A program made the translations under genes and the position numbers. The notes below the pieces were generated by a model. It saw only the letters and a list, made by a program, of their open reading frames with translations, was not told the origin of the DNA and did no database searches. Below, in pieces: positions 11,418 through 61,476 of a stretch of 64,000 nt of DNA (position 1 is its first letter; each line of letters begins with the position of its first letter). The stretch comes from Pectobacterium wasabiae CFBP 3304 (lineage in GTDB: Bacteria > Pseudomonadota > Gammaproteobacteria > Enterobacterales > Enterobacteriaceae), in assembly GCF_001742185.1 (NCBI RefSeq), contig NZ_CP015750.1, positions 620,001-684,000 of the forward strand, in the 5' to 3' direction.

Positions 11418-12080
11418 TACAGACTCCCGTCATGAATAGAGCGCACAGAATGTACGCGTAGGGTTCCGATGTTTGCCAAAATGCAGGAACGCATTGAGGC
11501 CAGTGAACATAATTCAGTCATACAGAAATAAAAAACAGATGGTGCACCAGTAGATGATTTCATGTTGTTTTCCTACTTATTAGCGCGACCTTGTTTTTAC
11601 TCTGATTTGGAATGAACCATGCTTGTAGGGTGATCAGAATAAAAACAGGTATAACTACCTTCATACCGGAATAACACAGTCAGGAAAGCGGTGCCATAAT
11701 CCGTACCGCCTTACCAACCTCAGTAAAAAGTATAAGTTTTCTTATTTCACAACTCATTGGGCAATAGCACAGCATTCCCTATCGAAATGCAGATTAAATA
11801 TGTCATTATCACAAACGAATGGGAGGTGTTTCACGAAAACCGAGAAACGCGAATTTCTGCCTGATAAACATCGGAATACGTACTATTGGCACCTAATTTC
11901 GCAGAGATAAATCCCTACTTTTCATGACATAAATAAAGGGCAAGCCTTAATACCGATCGTTTAAAAACTGAGATAGACGGAGCGACCACGGGGCAACGTG
12001 TTCCTGCGGGAACCTCATCCCGTGTTTCTCCTAAAAATGAGGCTTAAGTGACCGGCATTAGGGCAAGCTTATATAAATAA
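11418..12080. promoter_or_regulatory. Long gudX upstream region with motifs shared with gudP/garD
   Basis: About 660 bp without a credible gene. It should hold the promoter of gudX-gudD-garL-garR(-garK). Motifs recur in the gudP/garD divergent region: TGTAGGGTGATCAGAAT at 11624-11640 against a one-mismatch copy at 13560-13576; AGGTGTTTCACGAAAA at 11824-11839 against a one-mismatch copy at 13784-13799; GCCTGATAAA at 11859-11868 and 13903-13912. Shared motifs suggest a common regulator. CdaR is the known activator of these genes in E. coli, but I cannot verify its site here. The repeat at 11957-12060 occupies the distal end. Confidence 0.55.
11957..12060. repeat. Foldback intergenic repeat, copy A
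   Basis: About 100 bp, similar along its whole length to 18511-18613. Both begin TCGTTTAA, contain CGACCACG, GCGGGAACCTCATCCC and CTCCTAAAA, and end near GCTTAAG. Complementary segments (a TTCC/GGGA core, CGGG/CCCG flanks, TTAA at the ends) allow an imperfect long hairpin, so it looks like a non-coding MITE- or REP-type element. I do not recognise a named family. It lies just downstream of the gudP terminator. Confidence 0.65.
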
Positions 12081-12112
12081 ACGCCGAGCCATCAGCATGA
12101 TGACTCGGCGTG
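12080..12112 (-). terminator. Rho-independent terminator after gudP
   Basis: The segments ACGCCGAG and CTCGGCGT, with further pairing through CATCA/TGATG, form a long stem near 12081-12111. On the minus strand it is followed by TTATTTATAT. It sits about 40 bp past the gudP stop, so gudP transcription probably ends here and gudX starts separately. Confidence 0.75.
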
Positions 12113-12150
12113 TTGTGTTACAGACTACATTCAGAATTCAGAGATGCTCA

Positions 12151-13503
12151 TTAACGCTTAACGAACGGCTTCAATTCGATACGTTTAATATCCTGCACGA
12201 TGAACAGGTAGCTGGCGATAGCAACCAGTGCATGGATCCCGACATACACCAGACCGCCATTGAAAGAGCCAGTCATCCCGATGATGTAGCCAATTGCAAT
12301 TGGCGTCACGATACCTGACGCATTACCGAACATATTAAACAGTCCACCGCTTAACCCACTGATTTCTTTCGGTGCTGTATCGGCCATAACCGCCCAGCCC
12401 AGCGCACCAATACCCTTACCAAAGAAGGCCGCCGACATCACCGCAATGACGACCCACTCGGTTTCAACGTAGTTACAAATCACCATCGACATGGAAAGTA
12501 GCATACCAAGCACGATAGGCGTTTTACGGGCAAAGGTCAGTGAATTGGTTCGGCGCATCAGGTAATCGGAAATGATGCCGCCCAGAACGCCGCCCACAAA
12601 ACCGCAGATAGCAGGCACCGAGGCGACAAATCCCGCTTTAAGGATCGACATGCCGCGCGCCTGAACCAGATAAAGTGGGAACCAAGTGATGAAGAAGTAG
12701 GTCAGTGCGTTAATACAATATTGACCGATGTAAACACCAAGCATCATGCGAGACTGCATTAATTGCTTGATCTGATGCCATTTTTCACCCTTCACGGTCG
12801 CATTCTTCGACCCTTTGGCGTCCATATTGATCAGTGCGCCACCTGCTTCAATATAATCCAGTTCAGCCTGATTCACGCCAGGATGATCTTTGGGGTCGTG
12901 GATCACTTTAAGCCAGACAAAGCTGAGGATGATACCCAATCCGCCCATGAACCAGAACACATGCGCCCAACCCACCGCGTGTACCAGCCAGCCCATGATA
13001 GGGGCGAAGATCACGGTCGCAAAGTACTGTGCCGAGTTGAATATCGCGACAGCCGTGCCACGCTCTTGTGCGGGGAACCAGGCAGCCACAATTCGGCTAT
13101 TTCCCGGGAAGGAAGGTGATTCACACAAACCGACCATAAAGCGCAGGAGGAACAGAGAAATGACAATGCCCGCACCGCTGAAGATATCGACAAAGCCTTG
13201 TAATAAGGTAAAAATCGACCAGGTGAAGATACTGTAGAAATAGACTTTCTTTGAGCCAAAGCGATCGAGCAGCCAACCTCCAGGTATTTGACCAATAACA
13301 TATGCCCAGGAGAACGCAGAGAAGATAAATCCCATCCCCACTGCGTCCAACCCAATCTCCTTAGACATTGCTGAACCAGCAATGGACAAGGTCGCACGGT
13401 CTCCATAGTTAAATGACGTGACAATAAACAACATCACGACAATCCAGTAGCGGGCGTTTGTTCTCTTTTGTATCGCGCCAGCTGCTGAGCTTACTGTATT
13501 CAT
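12151..13503 (-). CDS. gudP: Glucarate/galactarate MFS transporter GudP
   Basis: Inner-membrane D-glucarate/galactarate:H+ symporter of the major facilitator superfamily (anion:cation symporter family). From the ATG at 13503 it has 450 residues and about 12 hydrophobic helices. The segments NARYWIVVMLFIVTSFNYGD and KEISGLSGGLFNMFGN are characteristic. An ATG 11 codons upstream is possible, but E. coli GudP aligns from the inner start. It is divergent from garD across a 569-bp regulatory gap and ends at its own terminator rather than running into gudX. Confidence 0.95.
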   Translation of the reverse strand: MNTVSSAAGAIQKRTNARYWIVVMLFIVTSFNYGDRATLSIAGSAMSKEIGLDAVGMGFIFSAFSWAYVIGQIPGGWLLDRFGSKKVYFYSIFTWSIFTLLQGFVDIFSGAGIVISLFLLRFMVGLCESPSFPGNSRIVAAWFPAQERGTAVAIFNSAQYFATVIFAPIMGWLVHAVGWAHVFWFMGGLGIILSFVWLKVIHDPKDHPGVNQAELDYIEAGGALINMDAKGSKNATVKGEKWHQIKQLMQSRMMLGVYIGQYCINALTYFFITWFPLYLVQARGMSILKAGFVASVPAICGFVGGVLGGIISDYLMRRTNSLTFARKTPIVLGMLLSMSMVICNYVETEWVVIAVMSAAFFGKGIGALGWAVMADTAPKEISGLSGGLFNMFGNASGIVTPIAIGYIIGMTGSFNGGLVYVGIHALVAIASYLFIVQDIKRIELKPFVKR

Positions 13504-52261: not shown

Positions 52262-52672
<411 letters not shown>

Positions 52673-52679
52673 TTATTCA

Positions 52680-52714
52680 GCCTCCTGTCTGGGTCAACCG
52701 CGGCCCGTGGAGGC
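52680..52714 (-). ncRNA. S6:S18-responsive leader of rpsF
   Basis: In the rpsF 5' UTR, GCCTCC and GGAGGC form a closing stem around a loop with CCGCGG-type sequence, ending about 25 nt before the rpsF start. This position and shape fit the known leader through which the S6:S18 complex represses rpsF-priB-rpsR-rplI in many bacteria. I could not check it against the Rfam model. Confidence 0.65.
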
Positions 52715-52753
52715 AAGGAACGTGTATGTGTGCGGCTGAAAAAATGACGCGTA

Positions 52754-53588: not shown

Positions 53589-53883
53589 ATTTCCCTCGCT
53601 TTCAGTTCTGTCAGCACGTTTTTATGTAGCGAAATCGTATTTAGCGGCAGAGCCACTACCTTTTACGATAAATCCGCACACAGCACTCTTCCTATTCTCA
53701 GCACCGCCATTAATTCCGTGCTGATTTAATAAGCGTATTTATGTAAATAAAAAAAATGCATTGACCGGAATCAATTACTGAAATGGACATTTACACTCCG
53801 TGAGTAAATTTTTTTTATTTACTGCCGTTAACGCATATGAAGTAAGACTAAAAAATAACCTTTTTATTATAAGAGACACACAT

Positions 53884-55829
53884 ATGTTGGGACTTTCCTT
53901 TAAGCACTGGGGTTTGGGTATCAAGTTATCAATTATCGCCTCCCTGAGCGTGGCGATATTGTTCATTGCCTTCACCCTCACTCTTACCCGCTCCGCAGGC
54001 AATCAACTAAAATCGTTGACCCTCAATGACATGCAGAGCCAGGTGAATGGAGTCACCGACATGATCAACATGTACGATACCAGCCTACAAGCCGAAGTTA
54101 GCAATTATACGCGGCTGCTGGCGAGCTTTCTGCCGACGCGGTTTTCACTGGATACCGTTAACCGTACCCCTTTCGGCAACACACCTCAGCCGACACTAAA
54201 GGCTGGCGATACGGTATTGAACCTCAACACCGAGGTGACGGATGACTTTCTGAGCCGTACTCACGCAATCTCAACGATTTTTGTCCGCGATGGAGAGGAT
54301 TTTACGCGCATCACCACCTCACTGAAGAAAGAAGATGGATCGCGCGCAATGGGCACCCAACTCGATCGTGAAAGCCCAGCCTATGCACTTGTGATGAAAG
54401 GTGAAACCTACAGTGGGCTAGCAACCCTGTTCGGCAAACAGTACATCACCCAGTATCAGCCAATACGCGATAGTGAGAACAAGGTCATCGGTATTCTGTT
54501 CGTCGGCGTCGACATCACAAAGCAATTTACCGAGATGCAACAAACTATTCTGAACAAGAAAATGGGTGAGACAGGCCATTTCTTTGTCCTTAGCACGAAA
54601 AAAGGAAAGGATGCAGGTAACTATCTTTACCACCAAAGCAATGCCAACCAACGCCCTGACTGGTCAGAAGGTGCGCTAGAGAAAGTGCTGACAACCGGTA
54701 ATGGCACGATCGAATACGACAACAACACGATGGCGGGCGAAGAAAAAACCCGGATCATGGTGTACCGCAGCATTCCACAGTGGAACTGGATTGTGGCGGG
54801 AACCATCAGTAAGGAAAGCCTGATGGCGGAGGTTAACCGCACCCGTAACCTATTTTTGGGCGGTGGCATTATTCTGGTCCTGCTTTTCGCTGCATTCTTT
54901 GTCGTGCTGACGCGCAAATGGCTGAGCCAGCCGCTGGTCGAAATCGTCAAAGTGGCGGAACAATTTTCTGCCGGTAACCTGACGGCCACGCTTTCCAGCA
55001 ACCGTGGCGATGAAGTCGGCCGTCTGATCGATGCGATTAACGGCATCGGACAGGGGCTAACGACTATCGTATCGCAGGTAAGAAGCTCATCTGAGGAAAT
55101 CAGCGCCAGCACCGATGCGCTGGCTGCTGATAGCGAGAACATCAGTGAGCAGATTGCCCGTCAGGCCAGCAGCGTCGAAGAAACCTCTGCCAGCATGGAA
55201 CAGCTCTCAGCCAGCGTGAAACAAAACGCCGATAATGTCTCTGCGGCCAAAGATCTGGCAGAGCAAAGCGCAGCGCAGCGGCAGCACGCAACGGTAGTCA
55301 GACCGTTACTGACTCGGTTTCTACAATGAGCGACATTAAAAACTCATCGCAGCGGATCGCCGATATAACGACAGTGATCGAATCTATCGCTTTCCAGACC
55401 AATATTCTGGCGCTTAATGCTGCGGTAGAAGCCGCTCGCGCGGGCGAACACGGCAGAGGCTTCGCTGTGGTTGCTGCTGAAGTGCGAGCACTGGCACAGC
55501 GCAGTTCTACTGCGGTGAAAGAGATCGAAACCTTGATTGATGAATCGCTGGAAAAAATCGAAGCGGGCTACCATTTCTCAGAAAAAACGCAGGCGGTAAT
55601 GGACGACTTGCGCAACCGCATCCTACAGGTCAGCACCATCGTGAACGATATTGATATCGCCTCACGCGAGCAGTCCGCAGGGATCAGCCAGGTAAATATC
55701 GCCATTGTACAGATTGGTCAGGCAACACAGGAAAACGCCATTCTGGTCAATAACTCGGAAGATACCGCGCAGAGTTTGCGTCAGAAAGGCCACCACCTCA
55801 GCGAACTGGTCAGCGTCTTCCGTATTTAA
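53884..55829 (+). pseudogene. Methyl-accepting chemotaxis protein, frameshifted (Cache sensor)
   Basis: Two abutting frames make one receptor of about 647 residues. Frame one, from the ATG at 53884, has TM1 (about 15-33), a large periplasmic Cache-type sensor (about 40-300), TM2 (about 322-342), HAMP and the first methylation helix, then leaves register and stops at 55327-55329. The second frame (through 55829) carries the signalling tip [25 protein letters not shown] and the return helix. GCAGC is duplicated in tandem at 55270-55279; removing one unit restores a continuous reading, [18 protein letters not shown]. As it stands the product would lack the CheA/CheW-binding tip. Confidence 0.88.
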
Positions 55830-55885
55830 CCCTAAATCATTCGAGTTTCAGGAAGGCGGCCATCGCGGGTATTGCGCGATGGCCG
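55829..55885. repeat. ERIC-end-like remnant and hairpin after the MCP gene
   Basis: ACCCTAAATCATTCGAGTTT and a few further bases at 55829-55860 resemble the left end of the element at 30084. It is joined to an 11-bp perfect stem, CGGCCATCGCG (55857-55867) with CGCGATGGCCG (55875-55885), which may end MCP transcription though no T run follows. Confidence 0.5.
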
Positions 55886-56075
55886 TTACTTGAGTATTAT
55901 GCCGACGTTTTTTTCACCCATCCCCACTGACAAAGGAGACGACATCATGACAACACTTACTCTGATTCTTTGCAGGACATCTCGGGTCTAATTACCGCAT
56001 TCTTTTCCGCTTTGCGTTATCCCCCTAGCTGTAGCCTGCCTTACCCTATTTTTAAATTGATCAGCAGGATGATCT

Positions 56076-57197
56076 ATGGGCAATGCTATTCGCTCTATTT
56101 CGGCGCGCGTCAGTGTGATCGCGACGGAAAATACCTGGATTGAAGATAAAGCAATCCAACAGCTTCAAATTACATCACAACTTCCCGATATGGTACGCGT
56201 GGCCGGTATGCCAGATTTGCATCCAGGCCGCGGTTACCCGATTGGGGCTGCATTTTTTTCACAACGGCGCTTCTACCCCGCTCTGGTCGGAAACGATATC
56301 GGCTGCGGCATGGCGCTATGGCGCACTGGCCTGAACGCCAACAAAATTTCGCTGGATAAGCTGGAAAAACGGCTTGGCAATATCGATGGGCCACTGGAAG
56401 ACGATATCGATATTCCACCCGAACTGGCAGATTTCCGCTATTCGCTGGGCACCATCGGCGGCGGTAACCACTTTGCAGAATTGCAGCAGCTTGATGAAAT
56501 TTATCAGCCCGATACGCTGCACGCTCTGCACATTGATCCTAAACAGTTGCTGTTGCTCGTGCATAGCGGCTCACGCGGCTTAGGGCAAACCATATTAGAA
56601 GCCCACGTGCGGGAGTTCGGTCATCAGGGTCTTGAAGCCAATACGCCTGCCGCAGAGTCTTATCTGGAACAGCATCAGTTTGCACTGACGTTTGCCACCA
56701 ACAACCGGCGGCTGATCGCGCAACGAATGCTGGAACGTTGGCATACGGAAGGCGATGCCGCACTGGACGTGAACCACAATCTGGTGACATCGACGACGAT
56801 TGAGGGCATTTCCGGCTGGCTGCACCGCAAAGGCGCGACACCCGCCGACTGCGGCCCGGTTATCATCCCCGGTTCACGCGGCGACTACAGCTATATCGTG
56901 CAACCTATATCTCATGCCGACAGCCTGTATTCACTGGCTCATGGCGCAGGCAGAAAGTGGATGCGCACGGAGTGTAAGGATCGACTGTCTTCACGTTATA
57001 GCGTCCAGCAACTGGCGCGTACGCGTTTCGGCAGCCGTGTGATTTGTCAGGACAGGCAACTTATTTTTCAGGAAGCACCAGAAGCCTACAAACCGATAGA
57101 CAGCGTGATCGGTGCGATGCAGCAGGCAGGATTAATTACACTGATTGCTCGCCTGAAACCGGTGCTCACCTACAAAACGCGCGGGGAGGATAAATGA
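56076..57197 (+). CDS. RtcB-family RNA ligase (RtcB2)
   Basis: GTP- and Mn2+-dependent ligase joining 2',3'-cyclic-phosphate (or 3'-phosphate) to 5'-OH RNA ends. At 373 residues it is shorter than canonical RtcB (about 408). Active-site motifs are complete: MPDLHPG, GNDIGCG (metal ligand Cys77), [25 protein letters not shown] and [10 protein letters not shown] with the guanylylated His289. It overlaps prfH by 4 bp (ATGA). RtcB paralogues paired with PrfH are reported to reseal 16S rRNA cut at the decoding centre. No archease or rtcA is present here, so this is not the classic rtcBA operon. Confidence 0.92.
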
Positions 57198-57820
57198 TAT
57201 TGCTTCAACTTTCCGCCGCACAGGGACCGGACGAATGCATGCTGGCAACGGCAAAAGCGTTGCAAGCTCTGATTCGCGATGCCGCACGACAAGGCATCGA
57301 ATCTGAAATCATCGAAACCGAAGCAGGGAAACGTTCCGGCACGCTACGTTCCGCACTGGTTCTGCTAAACGGTGAGCAGGCAGAACCGCTGGCTGCCAGT
57401 TGGTGCGGTACGCTTCAATGGACGTGCAATAGTCCGTGGCGTAAAGGTGGCGGACGCAAGAACTGGTTTATCGGCGTCGCACGCTTTCATCAGGAACAGG
57501 CATTTGCCGATAACGAGATTCGTTTTGAAACCACCAAATCCTCCGGCCCCGGCGGACAACATGTGAATAAAACTGAGTCTGCCGTCCGCGCCACCCATGT
57601 TGCCAGCGGTATCACGGTAAAGGTGCAGAGTGAACGCAGTCAGCACGCTAACAAGCGTCTGGCCTGTTATCTCATCGCCTATCGCCTGGAGACGTTACAG
57701 CAACAACAGCACGCTGAACTACGCGCACAGCGGCGTCTGTTCCACCATCAGATAGAACGCGGCAATCCGGTAAAAGTCTTCAAAGGTGAAGATTTCACGC
57801 TGGTCACCGCCTCGCGCTAA
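57194..57820 (+). CDS. prfH: Peptide chain release factor homologue PrfH
   Basis: 208-residue class-I release-factor homologue. It keeps the peptidyl-tRNA hydrolysis motif GGQ (residues 120-122, in [21 protein letters not shown]) but lacks the full RF1/RF2 codon-recognition superdomain. PrfH is reported to recognise ribosomes whose decoding-centre rRNA has been cleaved and to release the stalled peptide so that RtcB2 can repair the cut. The start overlaps the rtcB2 stop, so the two products are made together. Confidence 0.93.
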
Positions 57821-57829
57821 CCTCAACTC

Positions 57830-57866
57830 ACGGGCGGGCATCGATTGCCTGCCCGTTATTTTTTCT
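57830..57866 (+). terminator. Terminator of rtcB2-prfH
   Basis: ACGGGCGGGCA and TGCCTGCCCGT pair (one G-U) and are followed by TATTTTTTC, 10 bp past the prfH stop. The T run overlaps the end of the converging gene. Confidence 0.85.
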
Positions 57867-59617: not shown

Positions 59618-59944
59618 AATAGGTAAGGGAAAGGATGGAGAATTATAGATGATTCATGCATAGCAAAGCGTTTATACATGACTTTCCGTGATAAGCAATG
59701 CCGGGATCCCCTGCGTGGCGCTTTACCCCCTAGCCGTTGTATCTACACGAATATCCTCACATTGTTTGAGAAAATGAATAAGTATTGCGCCTGAAATGCC
59801 GATAACGGATAAGGTATTTTTATCAATAATATAGGAGCCTTTTTCACTTTCATCACCTGCCCTTTTTACACAACACACAACGACAACTAATCCGTTATTG
59901 GCCTGCTATGACGGTAATAATTAATGAAAAAAAGGAAGAAGTTT
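59618..59944. other. Intergenic region yjfL-MCP
   Basis: 327 bp between divergent genes, AT-rich near the chemoreceptor. I see no gene, strong hairpin or recognisable operator in it. Confidence 0.5.
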
Positions 59945-61476
59945 ATGCTGCGCTGGATGTCATTTCAAAATCTGTCAGTAACACGCAAGTTATTGGTAGG
60001 GTTTGGTTTATTGCTCATCATGGGAGTGATTCTTTCCATGGTTGGCTTTTATGGATTATACAATAGCGACCAATCGTTAAAACGCATTAGCCGCCTTGGT
60101 GCCATTTATGACAAGACCGTTGTCGCCCGAGAAGGCAACTTTGGCTATGCGCTGGAGCGTAAAGCACAGTATCTGGAACAACATGACAGCGCTATCGGTA
60201 ATATCAGCGGAGAGCTATCAGCACTGTTGAAGGAAATTGATACGGGGCACTGGCCAGCAGAAGATAAAAGCGCTATTCAGGATATCAGCACGTCACTCAA
60301 TGCCTATCTAACCCAGCGCCAGCAAGTCATGAGCCCGGATGTCAGCCAACAACGGCTTAGTGAATTGAACGATCAGATGGCGCTGTTGCAGGAAAATATC
60401 AATAAGCTTTACTTCACAGAAGAGAGTCGCGCTGGCCGTAACGTCATCAGCAGCGATATCCAACTGGGTGTAATTACGCTGATTGCCATCATACTCGGTC
60501 TGACGACGGCGATTGTTATTTCACGGCAGATCGTTCGCCCACTACACCAGGCGCTACATGCCACTCGCGCGATTGCAGAAGGCGATCTCACGGTACAACT
60601 TCACAATGAGCGCCGCGATGAATTAGGCCAGTTGATTTCAGCCATGGGGCAGATGAACAGCAACCTGCACGGCATGATTGATAAAATTCGCCTCAGCGCG
60701 AATCAAATTTCCTCTGCCGCAGGGGAGATTACCGCCGGTAATTCCGATCTTTCCGTCCGAACCACGCAGCAAGCCGCTGCACTGGAAGAAACTGCCGCCA
60801 GTATGGAACAACTGACGTCAACGGTGAAACAAAATGCTGATAACGCCCATCACGCCAACCGGCTGGTTATGGATGCCTCTGATACCGCGAATCAGGGGGA
60901 GAGCAGGTTTCTAAAGCCGTGAATACCATGCACGGCATTGCACAGAGTTCCCACCGTATTGCTGAAATCACCTCAATGATTAACAGCATCGCGTTCCAAA
61001 CTAACATCCTGGCGCTCAATGCTGCGGTAGAGGCTGCAAGAGCGGGTGAACAAGGTCGTGGTTTTGCCGTCGTCGCCAGTGAGGTGCGCAATCTGGCACA
61101 GCGCAGCGCGCAGGCCGCCAAAGAGATCGATACGCTCATTGGCGAATCGGTTTCGCAGATTAATAACGGTGCGGCACTCGTTAACAGCGCAGGAAAAACG
61201 ATGGAGGGGATTGTAGAGTCCGTGACGCAGGTTCACGCCATCATGAAAGACATTACTACCGCTTCTGACGAGCAGCATCGCGGTATTTCTCAGGTCGGTC
61301 AGGCAATCATAGAAATGGATCAGAACACACAGCAAAACACCGTGCTGGTCGAGCAATCCTCTTCTGCCGCTCACTCGCTGGAACAACAGGCACTCATGCT
61401 TTCCGATGCCGTTTCCGTCTTCCGGCTTTTACATCCTTCACAGCAAGACGTTCGCAGGCTGACATCGGCAGCATAA
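59945..61476 (+). pseudogene. Methyl-accepting chemotaxis protein, frameshifted (4HB-type)
   Basis: One receptor of about 511 residues split in two frames. From the ATG at 59945 (AAGGAAG upstream; an ATG 7 codons earlier is weaker) come TM1, a short periplasmic four-helix domain (about 35-180), TM2 and HAMP, then the first methylation helix. The frame is lost at a run of five G at 60895-60899 and stops at 60920-60922. One more G restores [14 protein letters not shown] and joins the downstream frame, which holds [25 protein letters not shown]. Without correction the signalling tip is lost. No NWETF-like tail. Confidence 0.88.

Follow-up and report, generated by a model that had tools for sequence, protein, structure and literature searches.

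A probable ribosome-stall-sensing leader upstream of rtcB2-prfH, a predicted ribosome rescue and rRNA repair operon of Pectobacterium wasabiae

Within a 64,000-nucleotide stretch of the Pectobacterium wasabiae CFBP 3304 genome (contig NZ_CP015750.1, positions 620,001 to 684,000; hereafter the window), we found an rtcB2-prfH pair which, with a probability that we put at roughly three in four, forms an operon for ribosome rescue and rRNA repair whose leader senses stalled ribosomes. This leader probably turns the pair on when ribosomes stall, and the best reading of its relatives is that in beta- and gammaproteobacteria alike rRNA repair is under an attenuator of this kind. Judged from sequence, the gene pair is a further member of the known RtcB2-PrfH system and not new in itself; the new value lies in the leader, a conserved and covarying element tied to the operon that would act as a ribosome-reading switch. 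Among the matches listed in open-access PMC, there is no description outside P. aeruginosa of how cells notice cut or stalled ribosomes and induce RtcB2-PrfH, and the conserved leader makes this induction directly testable.

The pair occupies positions 56076 to 57820 of the forward strand, exactly where the first-pass annotation had placed it, and the description of the two genes given there was borne out. rtcB2 (56076-57197, 373 aa) encodes an RNA ligase of the RtcB family (PF01139) that scored 622.2 bits against TIGR03073, above the cut-off of 271.8, and 584 bits against NF007153, while prfH (57194-57820, 208 aa) encodes a peptide chain release factor H scoring 330.7 bits against TIGR03072 (cut-off 166.65), which establishes both proteins as members of these NCBIfam families. 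The five active-site motifs expected of a catalytically complete ligase were all found (DIGCG starting at residue 74, GGGNHF at 128, HSGSRG at 163, HRKGA at 250 and HGAGRK at 289) and aligned with those of solved RtcB chains; which of their residues bind metal or GMP is our assumption. The solved chain closest to PrfH was 7sa4_8 (‘Peptide chain release factor H’, E 1.3e-81), the match spanning residues 1-201. PrfH has the intact GGQ reported for it, at residue 120, and is without RF domain 1, the RF2 model being aligned at positions 121-316 only. rtcB2 lies directly 5′ of prfH on the same strand, and the ATGA overlap from which translational coupling had been proposed is present at 57194-57197. 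Such an overlap, of -4 nt in 76 loci or -1 nt in 47, recurred in 123 of the 130 loci with a measurable rtcB2-prfH distance, out of 149 loci. An intrinsic-terminator-like hairpin with an 11-pair stem and the T tail TATTTTTTCT follows prfH at 57830-57866 on the forward strand, although terminator-like sites were about as common in shuffled sequences (3 in the region versus a shuffled mean of 2.9).

Both genes are well preserved in the genus. In 19 intact copies, the mean difference at codon positions 1 and 2 was 0.023 for rtcB2 and 0.028 for prfH, far below the 0.281 and 0.272 at four-fold sites, and therefore both genes are constrained; RtcB2 is 94-98% identical to the copies in eight named Pectobacterium contigs. 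The genome (one contig of 5,043,228 bases) encodes two further RtcB paralogues, at C1:838545 and C1:2310386, both below the TIGR03073 cut-off. PADLOC models of anti-phage defence gave no match to RtcB2 or PrfH up to E 1. The operon and its coupling were described in 2006, with Erwinia carotovora in the published alignment, according to the part of PMC1586002 available, and the E. coli ATCC25922 operon shares gene order, overlap, both protein families and the catalytic motifs with the window pair, as far as the available parts of PMC9223846, PMC1586002 and PMC6514570 describe it. Compared with the E. coli ATCC 11775 proteins, the window RtcB2 and PrfH are 56% and 63% identical, respectively. 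E. coli rtcBA (RtcB1), whose ligase belongs to the same superfamily as the window RtcB2, is controlled by sigma-54 and RtcR.

The function of the pair can be transferred by homology from work in E. coli. There, rtcB2-prfH shields strain ATCC25922 from colicin E3 but offers no protection against the tRNases E5 and D, and studies cited in the same paper reported in vitro release and religation of colicin-E3-cut ribosomes and 16S rRNA (PMC9223846, available in part). By this analogy, we infer that, once ribosomes have been cut at the decoding centre, PrfH would free their nascent chains and RtcB2 would reseal the 16S rRNA. The first-pass annotation had gone further, regarding the pair as a plausible defence against ribosome-cleaving toxins and suggesting a survey of its co-occurrence with carocin-type bacteriocins; the identity of the pair held, whereas a role in defence against such bacteriocins found no support in the genus. 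The E3-type RNase domain PF09000 scored over its cut-off in only two of the 25 genomes of the genus (G014, and G022 with two internal stops in its copy) and in this search was not found in the P. wasabiae genome itself. Both carriers are without RtcB2, so that PF09000 was present in two of the five genomes without RtcB2 over cut-off versus none of the 20 with it, a distribution with a chance of about 0.03 by our own arithmetic on one genome per species, drafts included. We regard this mutual absence as a hint and not a result. A missing weapon is what would be expected of a shield, and hence the absence of PF09000 neither refutes nor supports the defence reading.

The same rarity of E3-type domains would fit an operon that serves translation stress in general (antibiotics, oxidation, tRNA or mRNA damage), with colicin-type nucleases being incidental, as would the published induction of armZ and prfH of P. 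aeruginosa by ribosome-targeting antibiotics (PMC12057347, PMC13041342 and PMC3516279, each available in part). The selective protection of E. coli against colicin E3 argues against so broad a role, and armZ (PA5471) has been studied as a MexZ anti-repressor controlling MexXY efflux, a second job that need not apply to the window operon. We hold general stress as a tentative alternative, well short of even chances, to an operon for rescue and rRNA repair. For the trigger, as distinct from the purpose, analogy does point to stalled ribosomes in general as the probable signal, because the P. aeruginosa homologue of the leader responds to ribosome-targeting antibiotics.

The control region of this operon, at 55921-56081, had been overlooked in the first-pass annotation, which was right about the genes. 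The leader element scored 88.5 bits against our covariance model R1 (E 3.5e-27), and R1 had no other hit in the window up to E 1; the window leader is itself one of the 42 sequences behind the model. It contains, all on the forward strand, a Shine-Dalgarno sequence AAAGGAG (55932-55938, within segment A) located 8 nt from the ATG of a 14-codon upstream ORF (uORF; 55947-55991, MTTLTLILCRTSRV followed by a stop), for which comparable uORFs exist in relatives; segment B inside this uORF (55968-55976, CTTTGCAGG); segment C (56033-56041, AGCCTGCCT), able to pair with B or with the rtcB2 start region; and segment D, comprising the rtcB2 ribosome site and start codon region (56059-56082). A weak promoter-like TTGCGC-N17-TATTAT, inferred by reading the sequence, lies farther upstream at 55872-55900 on the same strand; its columns are largely kept in 21 genus loci, mostly as TTGCRC-N17-TATTAT, and the consensus promoter scan reported no site in this region by its own criteria. 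A search of 55840-56110 against Rfam returned no match up to E 1, which rules out a known Rfam family.

Within the genus, the intergenic region 5′ of rtcB2 hardly varies: from just 5′ of the uORF Shine-Dalgarno sequence through the rtcB2 ATG, the mean pairwise difference per site was 0.021 versus 0.281 at rtcB2 four-fold sites, and lower in all 171 pairs of the 19 genomes. A Shine-Dalgarno-led uORF of 12-16 codons preceded rtcB2 in 145 of 149 loci with a readable rtcB2 start, which are what remained of 151 after two with a partial rtcB2 (L051 and L174) had been dropped and are not independent, since named Pectobacterium contigs repeat genus genomes. The four loci without a uORF were L172, L173, L175 and L111, whose contig begins 100 nt upstream. 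Dinucleotide shuffling of 42 upstream regions of 260 nt yielded a uORF in 24 of 840 shuffles and one with the motif in 4 of 840, ruling out a chance origin of the uORF, the real regions having been chosen for possessing a uORF with the motif.

From this arrangement a simple switch can be proposed. The uORF, with its strong ribosome site, carries B; B could pair with C, and C could instead pair with the rtcB2 start region. In the off state, normal ribosomes would reach the uORF stop and cover B, and C would then hide the rtcB2 start; in the on state, ribosomes stalled early in the uORF would leave B free, B would take C and the rtcB2 start would be exposed. The switching, its direction and its response to rRNA damage are deduced, in part by analogy with the homologous armZ leader PA5471.1.

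The two alternative pairings were evaluated in a sequence-only alignment of 42 elements with less than 80% identity, drawn from 123 that had the motif, lay at most 205 nt from rtcB2 and were free of N. Pairing of B with C was observed in 86.6% of 336 cells with a covariation of 0.301 versus 0.181 in shuffles, and in none of 500 shuffles, a control that leaves shared ancestry in place, was either value as high; at two pairs, A-U was replaced by G-C in five sequences and G-C by A-U in seven. Pairing of C with D was observed in 77.3% of 291 cells across the 42 loci, with 0 of 500 shuffles as high on pairing and 1 of 500 on covariation. For both B:C and C:D, all slides scored lower on pairing and on covariation. 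Other measures were less sharp: on doubly changed pairs and on pair types, 36 and 19 of 500 shuffles, respectively, were as high as B:C and 14 and 115 of 500 as high as C:D, and on doubly changed pairs or cells and on pair types some slides equalled or passed the B:C and C:D structures. Taken together, the base pairings B:C and C:D are supported by covariation. A third candidate pairing, of the uORF ribosome site with B (A:B), was 90.4% paired with weak covariation and was not convincing.

Folding energies agreed with this switch for the leader family. In 37 of 42 loci, a ribosome placed at the uORF stop made the rtcB2 start more expensive to open than one placed at the uORF start. The mean stop-minus-start difference was +3.42 kcal/mol when 6 nt of coding sequence were included (shuffles +0.33, sets -0.33 to 1.46) and +2.07 kcal/mol with 33 nt (shuffles -0.23, sets -0.62 to 0.66); the difference was -1 kcal/mol or lower in 3 of 42. 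Relative to a ribosome on codon 4, the difference was +1.72, the stop state being costlier in 36 of 42 loci. The ribosome-free state was costlier than the start-stalled state in only 29 of 42 (mean +1.02), and the weak covariation of A:B, the pairing that would hold the ribosome-free state off, counts against such holding. In the window copy, B:C consists of five pairs only (GCAGG 55972-55976 with CCTGC 56035-56039), and its predicted probability is 0.67 when a ribosome occupies the uORF start, 0.05 in free RNA and 0 when the uORF stop is occupied. For free RNA and for an occupied stop, the best folds have C (TGCCT, 56037-56041) paired with GGGCA (56078-56082) at the rtcB2 start codon; pairing of C with the Shine-Dalgarno sequence GCAGG was ruled out by a predicted probability of 0-0.06. 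The stop-minus-start difference of the window element was +1.73 kcal/mol in the short context, with 4 of 20 shuffles as large, and vanished with more coding sequence (8.62 and 8.66). The modelling thus supports the switch for the leader family, and the energetics of the window copy do not show it clearly.

The leader has a studied relative in the armZ-PA5470/prfH locus of P. aeruginosa, where the uORF in front of an RtcB2-family gene beside prfH is short and contains the CTTTGCAGG segment too. According to the available parts of PMC12057347, PMC13041342 and PMC3516279, armZ encodes an RtcB-like protein, adjoins a release factor gene and is preceded at about 250 bp by PA5471.1, a leader ORF of 13 residues with Gln3 and Phe4. 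R1, whose training set includes other Pseudomonas leaders and not that of P. aeruginosa PA7, found the PA7 leader with 44.8 bits (E 3.3e-13), and the uORF there, MIQFSTLCRLRLA, fits PA5471.1 because it has 13 codons with Q3 and F4 and lies 254 nt upstream, compared with 129 in the window. As in the PA5471.1/armZ type, the window leader is a short Shine-Dalgarno-led uORF with a TTTGCAGG segment before an rtcB2-family gene, and one covariance model covers both. On these sequence grounds we consider the window leader a homologue of PA5471.1. The available parts of the same papers report that deletion or early interruption of PA5471.1 raised ArmZ, which fits an on state in which B is not covered.

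In P. aeruginosa, PA5471.1 was published as a ribosome-stall attenuator with transcriptional attenuation as the model (PMC12057347 and PMC13041342, available in part), and this raises the possibility that in the window, too, C pairs downstream to form a terminator which an early-stalled ribosome prevents. T-rich stretches 3′ of C in many of the 42 elements would suit such a mechanism. It appears rather unlikely for the window leader, where the consensus scan detected no terminator-like hairpin of the published 3:4 type between the uORF and rtcB2; across the 42 loci, C covaries with the ribosome site in D, and the P. aeruginosa mechanism has been called translational attenuation in the available part of PMC3575510. 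As the scan showed no 3:4-type terminator between the two, we call the leader a homologue without taking the same action as proven.

A leader ORF may alternatively just feed ribosomes to rtcB2 by reinitiation or raise expression constitutively, with the pairings stabilising the RNA, a role proposed for leader ORFs in general (PMC4833913, available in part). We think this very improbable, since B:C and C:D share C and both covary, and the published rise of ArmZ on early interruption or deletion of PA5471.1 is the opposite of what a feeder would produce.

With respect to the proposed stall-sensing leader, the question of whether RNA or peptide is conserved could be addressed through the reading frame of segment B. 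A CTTTGCAG-like segment was present inside the uORF in 142 of 149 loci and was read in frame 2 in 127 (giving ..LCR.. or similar), in frame 1 in 14 (..FAG.. or similar) and in frame 0 in one; since B is read in three frames, it is the RNA that is kept and not the peptide, and conservation at the peptide level alone is ruled out. Arrest of the ribosome by the nascent peptide (..LCR..) on a ligand or damage, which the recurrence of L-C-R residues in most loci and the tight uORF length of 12-16 codons might suggest, is very improbable, as B lies in another frame in 15 of the 142 loci with other peptides such as MTITSTSFAGLIR and codon 4 varies among L, I, F, T and P within the genus.

Outside Pseudomonas, no report of this leader before rtcB2-prfH was found among the matches listed in open-access PMC, apart from a riboswitch screen in which the E. 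coli K-12 stretch before prfH/ykfJ is listed as a candidate (PMC4448311, available in part), and regulation of an anti-repressor via a leader peptide was said to appear unique to MexXY in the available part of PMC12057347. One review, available in part, states that ykfJ of E. coli K-12 is induced by 4-azaleucine, as the stall-sensing leader model predicts. R1 recognises the same leader in E. coli ATCC 11775 (L089, 108 bits; near-identical leaders of the E. coli type are in R1), and this leader goes unmentioned in the available parts of PMC9223846, PMC1586002 and PMC6514570. A bolder proposal, in which our confidence falls somewhat short of even odds, is that the armZ leader, known from MexXY efflux control, represents a single instance of an RNA switch spread through beta- and gammaproteobacteria, whose ancestral job would be to sense ribosomes that initiate yet cannot elongate and to induce rRNA repair. 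The switch would work by RNA pairing whatever the peptide, and PrfH would complete the circuit by freeing the leader of its stalled ribosomes. A conserved leader would also explain how an RtcB-like protein of P. aeruginosa could be under stall control before its recruitment to efflux regulation.

R1 appears specific for this operon. In the genus, a strong match (E <= 2.3e-19) was obtained in 21 of 25 genomes, namely the 20 with RtcB2 and G007, which has an rtcB2 remnant, and all other matches were at E 0.005 or worse. Among 388 order genomes there were 36 matches at E <= 1.2e-5, of which 33 precede RtcB2; in G189 the rtcB2 that follows is broken over contigs, and in G191 and G493 the match is followed by a prfH whose rtcB2 has been lost; the next match was at E 1.1e-4, with weaker ones between E 1e-4 and 0.01. 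All strong matches in these 25 and 388 genomes are thus located 5′ of rtcB2, its remnant or prfH, in searches limited to scoring, for each genome, 114 first-look candidates in the genus and 7 in the order, which may miss elements elsewhere. Three of the 36 order genomes with RtcB2 gave no match at E 1.2e-5 (G197, G430 and G439), and G439 had one in the right place at E 0.0035. When R1 was applied to 13 loci, eight were matched at E 0.01 or better and five (L172-L176) were not, and there was no strong match near the two RtcB paralogues of the P. wasabiae genome. Operons with prfH only keep the leader: in L206 (G191:C10) and L207 (G493:C80) it stands before prfH with no rtcB2 found between, a short rtcB2-like start remaining in L206. 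In L027 (G007:C3), the leader is kept (69.9 bits) before a decayed rtcB2 matched in pieces within residues 1-70. R1 offers a bioinformatic handle for locating intact, decayed and prfH-only versions of the operon.

The distribution of the pair is sporadic, matching the earlier description in PMC6514570 (available in part). RtcB2 scored over the TIGR03073 cut-off in 20 of 25 genus genomes, one of which (G021) has a split rtcB2 frame; the genus search found only the remnant in G007 and nothing in G002, G009, G014 and G022. At wider ranks, it was over cut-off in 19 of 149 family, 36 of 394 order and 6 of 369 class genomes, counts that include the P. wasabiae genome, with the class search limited to E <= 1e-60. 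PrfH was over its cut-off in 35 of the 36 order genomes with RtcB2, G430 not being among the PrfH matches. In E. coli, DNA matches at 60-80% identity occurred in 3578 of 5426 genomes, with a query coverage of at least 80% in 1131. Named carriers, taken from the best 80 of 463 loci found, include Serratia, Xenorhabdus, Lonsdalea, Pseudomonas, Achromobacter, Ralstonia and Chitinimonas, the last three of which we take to be betaproteobacteria. In the plasmid collection, RtcB2 relatives were found in 32 records, nine of them typed conjugative; PrfH was annotated beside the relative in the two annotated plasmid records opened, and searching the collection with the leader DNA gave no match. The Klebsiella IncC plasmid NZ_CP086440.1 (L090), which is conjugative, carries leader, rtcB2 and prfH 5′ of sul1.

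Variant arrangements were also observed. In L078, from an order relative (G187), RtcB2 and PrfH form one in-frame protein of 578 aa that matches the two families over residues 1-370 and 375-576, the sole case in 149 loci, reflecting either a real fusion or a stop lost by sequencing error. In five genomes (G220, G256, G363, G507 and G523), PrfH over cut-off lies near RtcB relatives below the TIGR03073 cut-off, which suggests a second, divergent kind of pair. Elsewhere in the window, Rfam matches at 11603-12177 and 52652-52736 correspond to Rev72 (soft rot asRNA) and an RpsF leader, respectively. The chemoreceptor gene 5′ of the operon (53800-55829) is in two frames, split by a 5-base GCAGC duplication that is missing from the three relatives with printed alignments, and a second chemoreceptor gene (59924-61476) is likewise in two frames, broken at roughly the corresponding point in its signalling domain.
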